Assembly: GCA_945877505.1 (NCBI GenBank) | Contig: CAMDWT010000003.1 | Location: 1-64,000 of the forward strand | Length of the DNA: 64,000 nt | DNA from: Crenothrix polyspora | Lineage (GTDB): Bacteria > Pseudomonadota > Gammaproteobacteria > Methylococcales > Methylomonadaceae | Direction of reading: 5' to 3' | In this document: positions 1-5,808 of the stretch, in pieces | Numbering within the stretch: position 1 is the stretch's first letter | How the letters are laid out: each line of letters starts with the position of its first letter | Notes under the pieces: generated by a model | Told to the model about the DNA's origin: nothing | Seen by the model: the letters and a program-made list of their open reading frames with translations, nothing else | Database searches by the model: none | Translations under genes and position numbers: made by a program

Positions 1-1440
1 ACGTGGGCCATCAGTATGTCGTGCTTACTGACGCTTGTATTATTGGGCGCCGATTTAGCCGAAAAAAATACGGGTTCATTTCTCATTGGAAACTGGTTAA
101 ACAGCGATACCTTAAAGATATCAGTTAACTTTATTACGACGGGATTTAATAGTGTATTGGCGACTCTTTTTTCCATACTGTTAGTCATCATCATGCGTTT
201 TTCAATAAACTACATGCACAGAGAAGCTGGTTTCCACCGATTTTTCTTTATCTTAAGTCTTTTTTCTTCAGCGATGCTGTTATTGGTCTTATCCGGCAAT
301 GCTGTGGGGACTTTTTTCGGCTGGGAAATTGCCGGACTCTGCTCCTATTTGTTGATCGCTTACGCATATGATCGTCCCGTTGCTGGCATAAACGCAACCC
401 GGGTTTTTGTAACTAATCGAATCGGTGATGCGGGCTTTATTTTAGGAACAGGATTCAGTTTTAGCTGGGCTAATACTATTAACTGGAATGAGTTAAATGC
501 CTTTTCCGAACAACTCAGCTCAAATGAAGCAACTGGAATTGCCTTGTGCTTTACTGTTGCAGCCTTTGCAAAATCAGCGCAACTGCCTTTTACACCTTGG
601 CTAGCAAGAGCCATGGAAGGTCCCACACCTTCCAGCGCTATTTTTTATGGTGCCGTCATGATTCATGCGGGGGTTTATCTTGTTTGTCTCTTAGAACCCC
701 TTTATGAACAAGCGCCACTAGCAATGGCATTGCTTGTTATATCAGGCGGCTTAACAGCCCTTTTCAGCTTTATCGTCGGCCTCACACAGACTGATGTCAA
801 AAGCTCTTTGATTTTTGCCACCTCCGGTCAATTAGGGCTAATGATCCTAGAGTGTGGCTTGGGCTTTTGGGACTTAGCAAGTTGGCATCTTTGTATGCAT
901 GCCATTGTAAGAAGCTATCTATTCTTAACAGCACCATCACTCATGCATAATGTGATGAATAACCCCATCAAAACCATCAACCCATCGATTGGACGTTTAC
1001 ACTGGGCTTATATAGCCTCCCTACAAAGATTCTGGATTGATCAGATCACTGACTGGACTTTAGTTAGACCCATTCGCCGATTAGCTCACGACCTTAGCTA
1101 TTTTGATGACCATTTCGTCGATAAAGTCATGGGCTCTCCCGCTCCAGCTATTAAAACGATATCATCACTCGCACAACTAGAAGAGCAATTAATAGGGGCC
1201 CGACTTGATAATGAAATAGATCAGTTTGCCCAAGGAAGTGGCTTAGCAGGAAAACTGACTGAATTATTTGCAGGCATTGCCCACTGGTTTGAAGACCACT
1301 TTGTATTACGGGGTATCGGTAAAGATACGATTCACTATGGTCGAAAACTGGGGGAAAGCGCTAATAAATTCGAACAGTTGATCTTAAGACCTCGTTATCT
1401 AGTACTCTTTGTATTAATAACATTATTACTTGCCTTTTGA
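1..1440 (+). CDS. NuoL-like proton-conducting antiporter subunit (5' end truncated by window)
   Basis: Open frame runs to the window edge. Motifs WEIAGLCSYLLIAYAYDRP, NRIGDAGF and AKSAQLPFTPWLARAMEGPTPSSA match NuoL/DabB-type subunits. Confidence 0.85.
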   Translation, partial: TWAISMSCLLTLVLLGADLAEKNTGSFLIGNWLNSDTLKISVNFITTGFNSVLATLFSILLVIIMRFSINYMHREAGFHRFFFILSLFSSAMLLLVLSGNAVGTFFGWEIAGLCSYLLIAYAYDRPVAGINATRVFVTNRIGDAGFILGTGFSFSWANTINWNELNAFSEQLSSNEATGIALCFTVAAFAKSAQLPFTPWLARAMEGPTPSSAIFYGAVMIHAGVYLVCLLEPLYEQAPLAMALLVISGGLTALFSFIVGLTQTDVKSSLIFATSGQLGLMILECGLGFWDLASWHLCMHAIVRSYLFLTAPSLMHNVMNNPIKTINPSIGRLHWAYIASLQRFWIDQITDWTLVRPIRRLAHDLSYFDDHFVDKVMGSPAPAIKTISSLAQLEEQLIGARLDNEIDQFAQGSGLAGKLTELFAGIAHWFEDHFVLRGIGKDTIHYGRKLGESANKFEQLILRPRYLVLFVLITLLLAF

Positions 1441-1447
1441 GACATTA

Positions 1448-3016
1448 ATGGACGCGCCTCTTATTACTTTTTGGTCAGAAACGACTACCTTCCCACTGCT
1501 AACGGTGCTTACTTTAATTCCACTTGTAACCATGGTTACCATACTTTATTCTCGCTCGCCGAAAACCGCACTCAGACTGGGCTTCGCTGGAACATTACTA
1601 ACCGCCTTCCTGAGTTTATATCTGCTCGCTATTTTTGATTCAGGAAATCCAGGTATTCATCTGGCGGAACAATTCCACTTAGGCTGGTTTAGTTACAGTG
1701 TTGGTGTTGATGGCGCAAATATTCTATTTGTACCCTTAACAGCCGTATTAACGTTACTCGCCTTAGTTTATACCTTGATTACTAGGCATGTGACTGATCG
1801 CTTATTTATTGCCTGTTTGCTTGGCTATGAGGGTATTTTAATCGGGGCTTTTGTCGCACTCAATCTGATGCAATTTTGGTTATGGTGCTTACTGGAACTC
1901 ATCCCTGTCATTTTATTAAATAGGCATGCGGGTACTGGTCAGAATAGACGCTGGGTTATCACATTACTGCTTCAATATTGGGGTAGTGGCTTACTGATGA
2001 CACTGGCGGGCTTTTTGCTACTTGGTTTTGGTTTAATTGATTCCGAACATGCGCTTACGTTTGATTGGTTAACACTCAAACAAAATAACGCATATTTACA
2101 TGACGAAGTATTGATTTTTATACTGTTGTTTTTTGGCTTTGCCATTCGCATGCCACTATTTCCATTTCACGGCTGGCTCCCTTTACTTGCAGAACAAGGG
2201 ACTGTTGCCAGTAGCGCTATTTTTATAGTCGGACTAAAACTAGGTATTTATGCGGTCATTCGTTTTATTTTACCCTTAGTGCCTGGCGTTGCTGAACAAT
2301 GGGCCGACTTTGTTTTAACCTTAAGTTTAATCAGTATTCTCTACGGCGCATTACTGGCGCTCATGCAAATTAACATCCGAAGACTACTTGCCTTTGCAGT
2401 TGTAAGCCATACGGGCATGCTAGTGATTGGTATTTTCTGCTTTAATGAATACGGATTGGAAGGCAGTATCTTACTGTCTGTTGCTTACGGACTTGCCACA
2501 GCCGGCATGCTATTTAGTGTTGGTTTAATTTATGAACGAACTCGCACCGCCTTTATACCTCGCTTAGGCGGACTATTCGATGCTAACTCAACGGTCGCTA
2601 TATTATTTTTAATTTCGGCTCTTAGTACGATGGTTATGCCTGGCACGCCTGGATATGATGCCGCTCATTTACTTATTGAAGGTGTCATTGAAGAAGATGG
2701 TTGGTTACTCGCCATTGTGATATTAATCGGTAACGTGCTGGCTACCGCATTTTTACTCCGTGCCTTTCAACAGATATTTATAGCCTCTCCCAAAAGATTT
2801 CAGCATCCTTACAGCAGTCTTCACCATCCCGTCAGAAAAGAACGCATTATTACCGTAGCTATCTGTTCCTTGCTTATTATCACCGGTTTCTATACAACGC
2901 CTTGGTTAAACTATATAGACCAAGAAGCAACCGATATAGGTGAACATTATCCTATGCACAGCACACAACAATCTGGCCATAACGCTGAACCAGCCAAAGA
3001 CAATCAACATGAATAA
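1448..3016 (+). CDS. NuoM-like proton-conducting membrane subunit (divergent)
   Basis: Multi-TM protein with FAIRMPLFPFHGWLP and LKLGIYAVIRF motifs of the NuoM/MrpD family. ORF track starts at a TTG at 1430; ATG at 1448 (MDAPLIT) is more likely. Confidence 0.8.
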   Translation: MDAPLITFWSETTTFPLLTVLTLIPLVTMVTILYSRSPKTALRLGFAGTLLTAFLSLYLLAIFDSGNPGIHLAEQFHLGWFSYSVGVDGANILFVPLTAVLTLLALVYTLITRHVTDRLFIACLLGYEGILIGAFVALNLMQFWLWCLLELIPVILLNRHAGTGQNRRWVITLLLQYWGSGLLMTLAGFLLLGFGLIDSEHALTFDWLTLKQNNAYLHDEVLIFILLFFGFAIRMPLFPFHGWLPLLAEQGTVASSAIFIVGLKLGIYAVIRFILPLVPGVAEQWADFVLTLSLISILYGALLALMQINIRRLLAFAVVSHTGMLVIGIFCFNEYGLEGSILLSVAYGLATAGMLFSVGLIYERTRTAFIPRLGGLFDANSTVAILFLISALSTMVMPGTPGYDAAHLLIEGVIEEDGWLLAIVILIGNVLATAFLLRAFQQIFIASPKRFQHPYSSLHHPVRKERIITVAICSLLIITGFYTTPWLNYIDQEATDIGEHYPMHSTQQSGHNAEPAKDNQHE

Positions 3017-4553
3017 TAGTGTTTTCCCTCTGCTCAGCCTAGCTATCCTGCTGCCTTTAATAGGTGCAGTTACCATAGCGTTAGTCCGCAATATACAACT
3101 GGCTAAGAAAATTGCCGTCGTTACTGCCATTTTAGAACTGCTACTGACACTGCTTACGCTAGCCTTATTCAATGCCTCTGAGGGCAATACATTCCAACTT
3201 GTAGAACATTATCCATGGATACCCAGCTTAAATATCGAGTTTCTAATGGGTATTGATGGCATCTCGGTATTATTTTTACCTATGTCAGCTCTCTTAACCC
3301 TCATAACTATTGTTTCCTCTTGGAATTCCATACAACACTTACAACGCCTTCACTTTGCTTTATTGCTCGCGCTGGAAGGTATCACTATCGGCGTATTTTC
3401 TGCATTGGATACTGTTCTCTTCTTTTTATTTTGGGAGCTAACATTACCCCCCCTCTTCTTTCTCATAGGCCTATGGGGGATAGGGCCAAAACGTAGAAAT
3501 GCAGCGACTAAATACACGCTCTTTATGTTGTTTGGCGGTATACCTTTATTATTTGGCTTTATTATTCTAGCTATTAATCACGCTATTGATGTAGGAGGAG
3601 CGGTCCCTCAAGACCTATCCTTCAACTTACCCGTTCTCTTAGAAACACAATTACCCGATAATTTACAAACGATTGTCTTTGGACTGCTGCTGCTAGGTTT
3701 TTCAGTTAAAGCCGCTTTAGTCCCTTTCCATACATGGCTACCCACCGTCACCATGGAAGGACCCACTCAAGTAACGGCCTTATTAATTGGACTTAAGTTA
3801 GGTATCTATGGCATTTTGCGCTTTGCAATGCCTTTAGCGCCCTCCGCGGCTGTCGAATACAGTTGGATATTGGGCATCTTAGGCGCTATTACCCTGATTT
3901 ATGGCGCATTAATTGCTTTACAACAAACCAATTTACGACGATTATTAGCTTACGCAAGTATCAGTCATGTTGGCTTAGTTATTATCGGCATAGCCTCGTT
4001 AACTATACAAGGTATTCAAGGCGCTATTTTTCAACTTTTTAATTTTACTCTGATTTCTAGCTCCCTCATGTTAATCGCTGGGTTTATTCAGCATCGAGTC
4101 GGAAGCACTGAGATCATCCACCTAGGTGGCTTGGCTAAAGTAATGCCCAGACTCACCAGCTTTTATTTTCTATTTGCACTCGCTAGCATGGGCGTTCCTG
4201 GCACTAATGGTTTTCCCGCAGAACTATTAATAATTATCGGTGCATTAATAGCGCATCACAGCTTGGGTATTACTGCACTAGCAGGCGCTATCCTCTGTGC
4301 GGCCTACATGTTATCGTTTAGTCGTCAGGTCTTTTTTGGCCCTATTACTCAAAAATCAGTTGGCCAACTACAAGATTTACGGCCCCGTGAACTAAGCCTG
4401 CTATGCATACCTGCCTTATTAGTCTTAATTATTGGCTTTTTTCCTAATAATATTCTAAAAACTAATCAGGTAGCCGCTGAGGCCTGGTTATCACATTTAC
4501 TCGACCAACCCTCACTAAAAAATAATGAAATTGCGGGACTAGTTAGCCCTTAA
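3009..4553 (+). CDS. NuoM-like proton-conducting membrane subunit
   Basis: Motifs LFFLFWELTLPPLFFLIGLWG, FSVKAALVPFHTWLPTVTMEGPTQVTALL and RRLLAYASISHVGLVIIG. Internal ATG at 3009 (MNNSVFPLL) preferred over the listed 2940 start; overlaps the previous gene by 8 nt. Confidence 0.85.
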   Translation: MNNSVFPLLSLAILLPLIGAVTIALVRNIQLAKKIAVVTAILELLLTLLTLALFNASEGNTFQLVEHYPWIPSLNIEFLMGIDGISVLFLPMSALLTLITIVSSWNSIQHLQRLHFALLLALEGITIGVFSALDTVLFFLFWELTLPPLFFLIGLWGIGPKRRNAATKYTLFMLFGGIPLLFGFIILAINHAIDVGGAVPQDLSFNLPVLLETQLPDNLQTIVFGLLLLGFSVKAALVPFHTWLPTVTMEGPTQVTALLIGLKLGIYGILRFAMPLAPSAAVEYSWILGILGAITLIYGALIALQQTNLRRLLAYASISHVGLVIIGIASLTIQGIQGAIFQLFNFTLISSSLMLIAGFIQHRVGSTEIIHLGGLAKVMPRLTSFYFLFALASMGVPGTNGFPAELLIIIGALIAHHSLGITALAGAILCAAYMLSFSRQVFFGPITQKSVGQLQDLRPRELSLLCIPALLVLIIGFFPNNILKTNQVAAEAWLSHLLDQPSLKNNEIAGLVSP

Positions 4554-4583
4554 TTCCTACTATCGCTACATCAGGAGTCTTCA

Positions 4584-5063
4584 ATGAATAACACCCTTGA
4601 AACACGCCCGCCAATTCCACCCTTTACCCGAGAAACAGCCCTACAAAAAGTACGTCTCGCTGAAAATGCTTGGAACAATCAAGCGCCACAACAAGTGGCC
4701 CTAGCTTATACCATTGATAGTTTATGGCGAAACCGCAATCAATTTATTGTTGGTCGTGAACAAATTATTGATTTTCTGACCCACAAATGGTCAAAAGAAC
4801 TTGATTACCGCTTAATAAAAGAGCTCTGGGCATTTAATGACAACCACATCGCAGCGCGTTTTGCTTACGAATGGCACAACTCAAGTAACGAATGGTTTAG
4901 ATCGTATGGTAATGAAAACTGGGAGTTTCATAAAAATGGCTTGATGCAGTGTCGTTATGCCAGCATCAACGACATCGCCATTAAGGAAGCTGAACGGAAA
5001 TTTCGCTGGCCTAAGGGCGATCGCCCAGACCATCATCCTGGGTTAAGCGACCTCAACCTTTAG
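4584..5063 (+). CDS. DUF1348 / nuclear transport factor 2-like protein
   Basis: [41 protein letters not shown] and [12 protein letters not shown] are characteristic of the DUF1348 (NTF2-like) family. Confidence 0.8.
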
Positions 5064-5130
5064 CGAAAAGCTAGTATCCCCAAGGAAACTCTTCTATGCT
5101 TTAATTTTAAAACAGAGAAGAGTGCATCAC

Positions 5131-5808
5131 GTGGCTATTAAAGATTGGCCGGCAGAAGACAGACCTAGAGAAAAACTACTGCAACGGGGCTCAGCGGCCT
5201 TAACGGATGCAGAGTTACTCGCCATTTTTTTACGCACCGGCACGCCCGGTAAATCAGCCGTCGATTTAGCTCGCGAATTACTATCAGATTTTGGTTCTTT
5301 AAAGGGCCTACTTAATGCCGATCAGCAACAATTTTGCAGGGGCTTAGGTTTAGGTAGCGCTAAATTCGCTCAACTGCAAGCAGTACTTGAAATGGCCAAA
5401 CGCCATTTTAAAGAAGTACTTGATCGTGGTAACGCTCTCACTAGCCCTGAAATTACCAAAGCTTATCTCAGTGCTCAATTACGCGGTTATAGCTACGAAG
5501 TTTTTGCCTGCTTATTTTTGGATAACCAACACAGAGTTATTAAACTCGATGAACTATTCAGAGGCACCATTGATGGTGCAAGCGTTTATCCACGAGAAGT
5601 GGTCAAGCAAGCACTTTATCATAATGCAGCGGCTGTCATTTTTGCTCATAATCACCCTTCGGGTATCACCCTACCCAGTCAATCTGACAAACAAATCACC
5701 GAAAAACTCAAGCAAGCGTTAGCCTTATTTGATATTAGAGTACTCGATCATTTTATAATTGGTGATGGAGATCCTTACTCTTTTGCAGAGCATGGGTTAA
5801 TGTCTTAA
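5131..5808 (+). CDS. radC: RadC family JAB-domain protein
   Basis: [20 protein letters not shown] start (GTG at 5131; ORF track lists GTG at 5122). FAHNHPSG metal-binding motif. Confidence 0.92.

Follow-up and report, generated by a model that had tools for sequence, protein, structure and literature searches.

The window analysed here comprises 64,000 nucleotides of Crenothrix polyspora and starts with the first base of contig C3, in a genome of 126 contigs and 2.46 Mb that is estimated to be 99.75% complete. Three PF00361 proteins, here termed L, M1 and M2, are encoded in a row on the plus strand (1-4553) and are followed by a DUF1348 gene and by radC; the gene calls at 1-5808 bore out the initial annotation, in which three consecutive NuoL/NuoM-like subunits had been described ahead of these two genes. 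As position 1 is a contig start, genes further upstream are invisible from the window alone. The end of contig C78 and the start of C3 share an exact overlap of 149 bases, and joining the contigs across it yielded an uninterrupted, in-frame L protein of 520 residues, 41 of which sit on C78, so that the first protein of the window had been taken as whole in error. Inspection of the upstream side, which had been proposed in the initial annotation as a way to distinguish between DabA and nuoA-K, revealed DabA and M0 but no nuo operon, and DabA stops 2 bases short of L, which runs on into the window. DabA and M0 are missing from the window because of the assembly break between C78 and C3 and not for a biological reason. 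After the join, the complete order is M0-DabA-L-M1-M2 in one operon, of which the trio in the window is the 3' part (Table 1). Without sight of M0 and DabA, the first reading had missed this five-gene unit. Upstream of M0 on C78 (L039, 1-4717), and likewise in the relatives L040, L041 and L050, lie opposite-strand genes in a conserved order; their products of about 154, 482, 251 and 440 aa resemble, by size and sequence, a regulator and suf iron-sulfur assembly proteins.

Table 1. Features of the M0-DabA-L-M1-M2 operon and adjacent genes. Positions refer to the window unless contig C78 is named.
Feature	Position	Strand	Remarks
M0, NuoM-like	C78:5003-6475		490 aa; upstream of DabA
Long DabA (PF10070)	C78:6484-9747		1087 aa; directly upstream of L
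L, 5' part	C78:9750 onward		first 41 residues of L
Contig-end overlap	1..149	.	identical to terminal 149 bases of contig C78
L, NuoL/DabB-like	1..1440	+	5'-open in the window; 479 of 520 residues
M1, divergent NuoM-like	1430..3016	+	528 aa from TTG; in-frame ATG at 1448 is a possible alternative start
M2, NuoM-like	about 3009..4553	+	514 aa from ATG at 3009
DUF1348 gene	4584-5063		30 bases past the end of M2
radC	5122-5808

The motifs named in the initial annotation were all found again, HAIVRSYLFL and AIFYGAVM in L, FAIRMP and EQGTVASS in M1 and FSVKAALVPFHTWLP in M2. The lysine to arginine changes are real (K234R in 76/76 M1 proteins, K342R in 74 of 77 L proteins), and as both are kept across the relatives they do not represent noise. 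However, HAIVRSYLFL had been taken as a TM12 segment and actually represents the H-x3-H-x3-K342 motif of TM11, equivalent to H339, H343 and K347 of DabB2; nothing in L corresponds to TM12, and no residue aligned to TM12 K399/D400. TM1-11 are followed in this protein by a long C-terminal part that is for the most part non-hydrophobic and ends in a single hydrophobic helix; the canonical TM12-14 are missing. E144, K229, K305, H334 and H338 are retained in 72-76 of the 77 L proteins, R175 and D178 in at least 72, and the TM5 glutamate, at which position DabB2 has an isoleucine, is present in 73. An AlphaFold model of a close L relative matched complex I NuoL structures and was confident for TM1-11, with low confidence in the C-terminal part. 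This part includes a predicted 33-residue helix (387-419), which was considered with regard to the lateral helix of NuoL and the 26-residue insertion that marks this helix in 2M complex I, and a comparison of L with the TM15/HL junction of NdhF gave a weak match (E 0.015). A long lateral helix clamping the extra subunits is unsupported, as the confidence of the model is too low in this region.

The comparison with NuoL/M, MrpA/D and DabB that had also been suggested placed L on the DabB side and the M proteins outside complex I. In a tree of L-type proteins, L joined DabB, with support of 100/98 for the grouping with the type encoded on contig C7 of the same genome and only moderate support (89/75) when the grouping was widened to DAB2-like DabB by adding the G090 type. 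Forcing L and complex I NuoL into one clade was rejected (p-AU 0.00028). By its sequence, the membrane partner L thus belongs to the DabB branch and not to complex I NuoL.

The long DabA was readily aligned with DabA2 of Halothiobacillus neapolitanus (9rd0; E 3.7e-74). C559, D561, R563, H750 and C765 are invariant in 58/58 relatives and align with C351, D353, R355, H524 and C539 of DabA2, so that the zinc site (Cys-Asp-Arg / His / Cys) is retained. A fold search of the PDB with the DabA model returned no significant match, perhaps because the DAB2 entry is newer than the structure library searched. The position of the finger-tip residue Glu444 of DabA2 is occupied by Asp in 27 of the 58 relatives and by Ala, Val, Asn, Thr and others in the remainder; retention of the finger acid as Asp holds in this genome, yet not as a general trait.

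A second DAB of the genome consists of two genes on contig C7 (L173, 5390-9927). As in the five-gene operon, DabA is accompanied by a NuoL-like DabB with Arg at the TM11 Lys position, but here a single membrane subunit (629 aa, on a very long branch) is found together with a shorter DabA of 883 aa and a different finger, which is shortened and lacks the Glu444 position. The C7 pair is a further DAB subtype, distinct from DAB2. Glu444 is a trait of DAB2 rather than a definition of the family, as this second DAB lacks it, too.

In DAB2 (DabA2-DabB2), the finger of DabA, the tip of which carries the essential Glu444, enters DabB at the site that TM12 occupies in NuoL, and it is proposed that ions passing through DabB open a buried zinc site, resulting in one-way hydration of CO2 (PMC13144422). 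With the cryo-EM structure of this complex (9rd0), the present system shares the zinc site Cys/His/Cys and the Asp-Arg dyad in the PF10070 subunit as well as a NuoL-like PF00361 partner with equal residues in the cytoplasmic half-channel. In contrast, the operon encodes four PF00361 subunits where DAB2 has one, its DabA is longer by about 220 aa, mostly ahead of the zinc site, the finger glutamate is not conserved, and in L the TM5 Glu is present, Lys347 is replaced by Arg and TM12-14 are missing. The missing conservation of Glu444 and the TM5 Glu that was lost in DabB2 call for caution in copying the mechanism of DAB2.

With these reservations, M0-DabA-L-M1-M2 most probably encodes a DAB/DAC-type membrane complex that would draw on a transmembrane ion gradient to turn CO2 into bicarbonate within the cytoplasm; the driving ion could be either H+ or Na+. 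It is unlikely that a DAB-family complex at this locus has another substrate or direction, as in S. aureus, for which an MpsAB-like Na+/bicarbonate symport has been proposed, or in YbcC, for which ion export driven by an exergonic reaction was proposed in 2017. The study on YbcC did relate the count of membrane subunits to that of the ions (PMC5700660), and the Na+-type NQR of the genome and the variable Glu444 position would fit such a function. However, the zinc-site residues are as fully conserved as in the CO2-hydrating DAB2, and the DACs tested so far take up CO2 in an uncoupler-sensitive manner (PMC13144422).

A scan of named genomes for relatives of M1 yielded 80 loci, with taxon names as in the records and genomes that are partly binned. 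They belong to Methylobacter, Methylovulum, Methylomonas, Nitrosomonas, Nitrosospira, Nitrotoga, Thiodiazotropha and tubeworm symbionts, Sulfuricella and a Magnetococcales bin. M0-DabA-L-M1-M2 occurred in the same order and on one strand in 56 of the 80 loci, with median gaps of 8, 1, 4 and 1 bases between the five genes, and most of the remaining loci were interrupted by contig ends. The relatives with this order include methanotrophs, ammonia and nitrite oxidisers and sulfur oxidisers, and the order was also seen in about 15 congeners and in other families of the Methylococcales. Among 234 Methylococcales genomes with a completeness of at least 90%, M1 was present in at least 129, the long DabA in at least 108 and both in at least 106. 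DUF1348 was considered as a sixth subunit and rejected, since just 11 of 82 loci, mostly of the Methylobacter type, have it directly after M2; it is a local, genus-level neighbour.

About ten loci carry the L-M1-M2 trio without adjacent M0-DabA (including L066, L068, L072, L075, L076, L079, L105 and L112), and some genomes pair a truncated DabA with an intact trio. Both would be expected if L-M1-M2 were a separate antiporter-like, ion-translocating module that neighbours M0-DabA by chance. We regard this as quite improbable, since 10 of 11 genomes with a detached trio that were checked hold a substantial DabA elsewhere (G063 has only a weak fragment), M1 and the long DabA strongly co-occur, and the five genes are tightly packed in most genomes. 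Where examined, the detached DabA adjoins M0, with the exception of L159, where no M0 was seen beside DabA. This 1122-aa DabA is from a genome titled Aquificaceae, which has M0-L-M1-M2 on a separate contig (L139) with a neighbourhood that looks gammaproteobacterial, and this contig is possibly misbinned. Two Methylovulum-type genomes (L152, 7577-9739 and 9499-10962; L153, 6010-9323) have M0 followed by a DabA of just 720 or 610 aa, which ends early, ahead of the zinc core or at it, or aligns poorly across the catalytic core; elsewhere these genomes still carry L-M1-M2 (L112) or M1 alone (L088). Such loci may be in the course of decay or may serve a purpose that requires no carbonic anhydrase, and a single complex of all five proteins does not account for the few relatives in which M0 adjoins a truncated DabA and the complete trio is found at another site.

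A tree of 71 PF00361 proteins resolved L, M0, M1 and M2 as one clade each, none of which fell within complex I NuoM or NuoL, and M1 and M2 were sister families (support 99). In nearly all M0 and M2 proteins, the Glu residues of TM5 and TM12 and the Lys residues of TM7 and TM8 are retained. In all 76 M1 proteins, by contrast, the TM5 Glu is replaced by a small or hydrophobic residue and the TM7 Lys by Arg, and the TM12 Glu has mostly given way to Ala, Val or Ile. The loss of both glutamates and the low conservation of M1, which ranks last among the five proteins in 20 of 23 distant loci, would be compatible with a decaying duplicate, that is, a degenerate NuoM without function. This is very unlikely, because the altered residues are invariant: in addition to the TM7 Arg, M1 has kept the TM8 Lys (76/76) and the M1-specific His413 (75/76), Asp410 (73/76) and Glu417. 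Also, the open reading frame is intact in about 75 loci, and the mean identity of M1 in nearer relatives is, at 72%, level with that of M2. The idea that M1 leads the five proteins in conservation holds among close relatives only.

Neither NuoD nor NuoN was found in the genome, and apart from the trio, PF00361 proteins are encoded only in DabA loci, namely as M0 (C78) and as the DabB-like protein of C7. Since the genome is devoid of complex I, the trio has no complex I to belong to. A Mrp-type antiporter was rejected as well, as no MrpB, C, E, F, G or MrpA/D was found among the neighbours of the operon and the L and M proteins fall outside MrpA/MrpD on a different branch. A 2M complex I variant with an extra NuoM and the remaining nuo genes elsewhere, as suggested by the likeness of a NuoL-type gene followed by two NuoM-type genes to nuoLM1M2N (PMC7117926), is hardly conceivable given that NuoD is absent from a genome of this completeness, DabA lies directly upstream of L, and L, at 520 aa and without TM12-14, is outside complex I NuoL. 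Of the three options offered in the initial annotation, the DabB/DAB partner has therefore held, as DabA adjoins the NuoL-like gene in the joined contigs; the 2M complex I has fallen; and it is improbable that a stand-alone module is ancestral, even if in some relatives the trio does stand apart from M0-DabA. Thus, the operon is not a complex I variant, and a stand-alone module is, less firmly, probably ruled out as well. The gene order shared by 56 of 80 loci, the zinc site of DabA, the position of L in the DabB lineage and the lack of complex I together point to a multi-subunit variant of DAB/DAC.

Characterised DACs are two- and three-subunit complexes and a single-subunit fusion (PMC13144422), in contrast to the five genes of the present unit. 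Extra NuoM genes have been noted before: according to the main text of a study from 2017, NuoM genes are often located close to ybcC (dabA) genes that precede nuoL homologs, and it was suggested for YbcC systems that more membrane subunits move more ions (PMC5700660). The present operon shares with the YbcC (COG3002) operons of clade C in this study both the ybcC/dabA gene upstream of a nuoL homolog and the additional COG1008 (NuoM) genes and probably belongs to this clade. The main text describes no five-gene unit, residue analysis or carbon function. In the literature searched, no description of M0-DabA-L-M1-M2 was found, nor of DAB genes in methanotrophs or Nitrosomonas; the unit is apparently undescribed, with the reservation that the arrangement may appear in published supplements. 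Extra antiporter-type subunits on an ancestral core are also known from the 2M complex I of Nitrospira and Chloroflexi and the five-pump Complex_I_3 of Manganitrophaceae (PMC9040806, PMC7117926), but these are electron-transfer enzymes with nuoA-K and N, genes that the present system lacks. In another family of the same order (G044), a 1108-aa DabA precedes a 683-aa NuoL-like and two NuoM-like proteins (L053, 2802-11100). It is 39% identical to the long DabA over the C-terminal part, and the two NuoM-like proteins are mutual sisters. This locus looks like a second kind of multi-subunit DAB that gained its extra antiporter subunits independently.

How the five proteins may act together can be outlined from their residues. 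DabA would be the catalytic subunit, resembling a beta-carbonic anhydrase, and L the membrane protein that it contacts directly; L would share its cytoplasmic half-channel with NuoL/DabB, and the finger of DabA may occupy the place of TM12-14 in it. M0 and M2 would provide additional complete ion channels that share in driving CO2 hydration. For M1, pumping along the usual route is improbable, and this subunit could act as a bridge or relay. The presence of two complete channels of the NuoM type and an altered one suggests that the drive is extended beyond the DabA-DabB pair, and with the extra subunits more ions may be spent on each CO2. Tentatively, the system can be pictured as a geared carbonic anhydrase, in which the channels of M0 and M2, the half-channel of L and a non-pumping M1 relay might jointly spend several ions on each CO2; we consider this possible, with the odds slightly against it.

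In addition to NqrA, the genome carries the particulate methane/ammonia monooxygenase family PF02461 (pMMO) and proteins of the beta-carbonic-anhydrase family, and RuBisCO was not found in it. In such a methanotroph, the bicarbonate could feed carboxylases and retain CO2 from methane oxidation, which is the least certain step of the proposed function. The operon would place an energy-driven, CO2-trapping enzyme in methanotrophs lacking RuBisCO, in which inorganic-carbon pumps are hardly discussed in the literature searched. As these genes are named complex I-like in many genomes, complex I may be mis-scored as partly present. If all four membrane subunits serve one DabA, the complex would be the carbon-pump counterpart of the complex I variants with extra pumps, and the number of ions per CO2 hydration becomes a testable question. 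If the geared reading is true, the enzyme would, by analogy to 2M complex I as a geared NADH dehydrogenase, allow a steeper accumulation of bicarbonate or operation at a low ion gradient, and its users would be oxidisers of methane and ammonia, some of them without RuBisCO.
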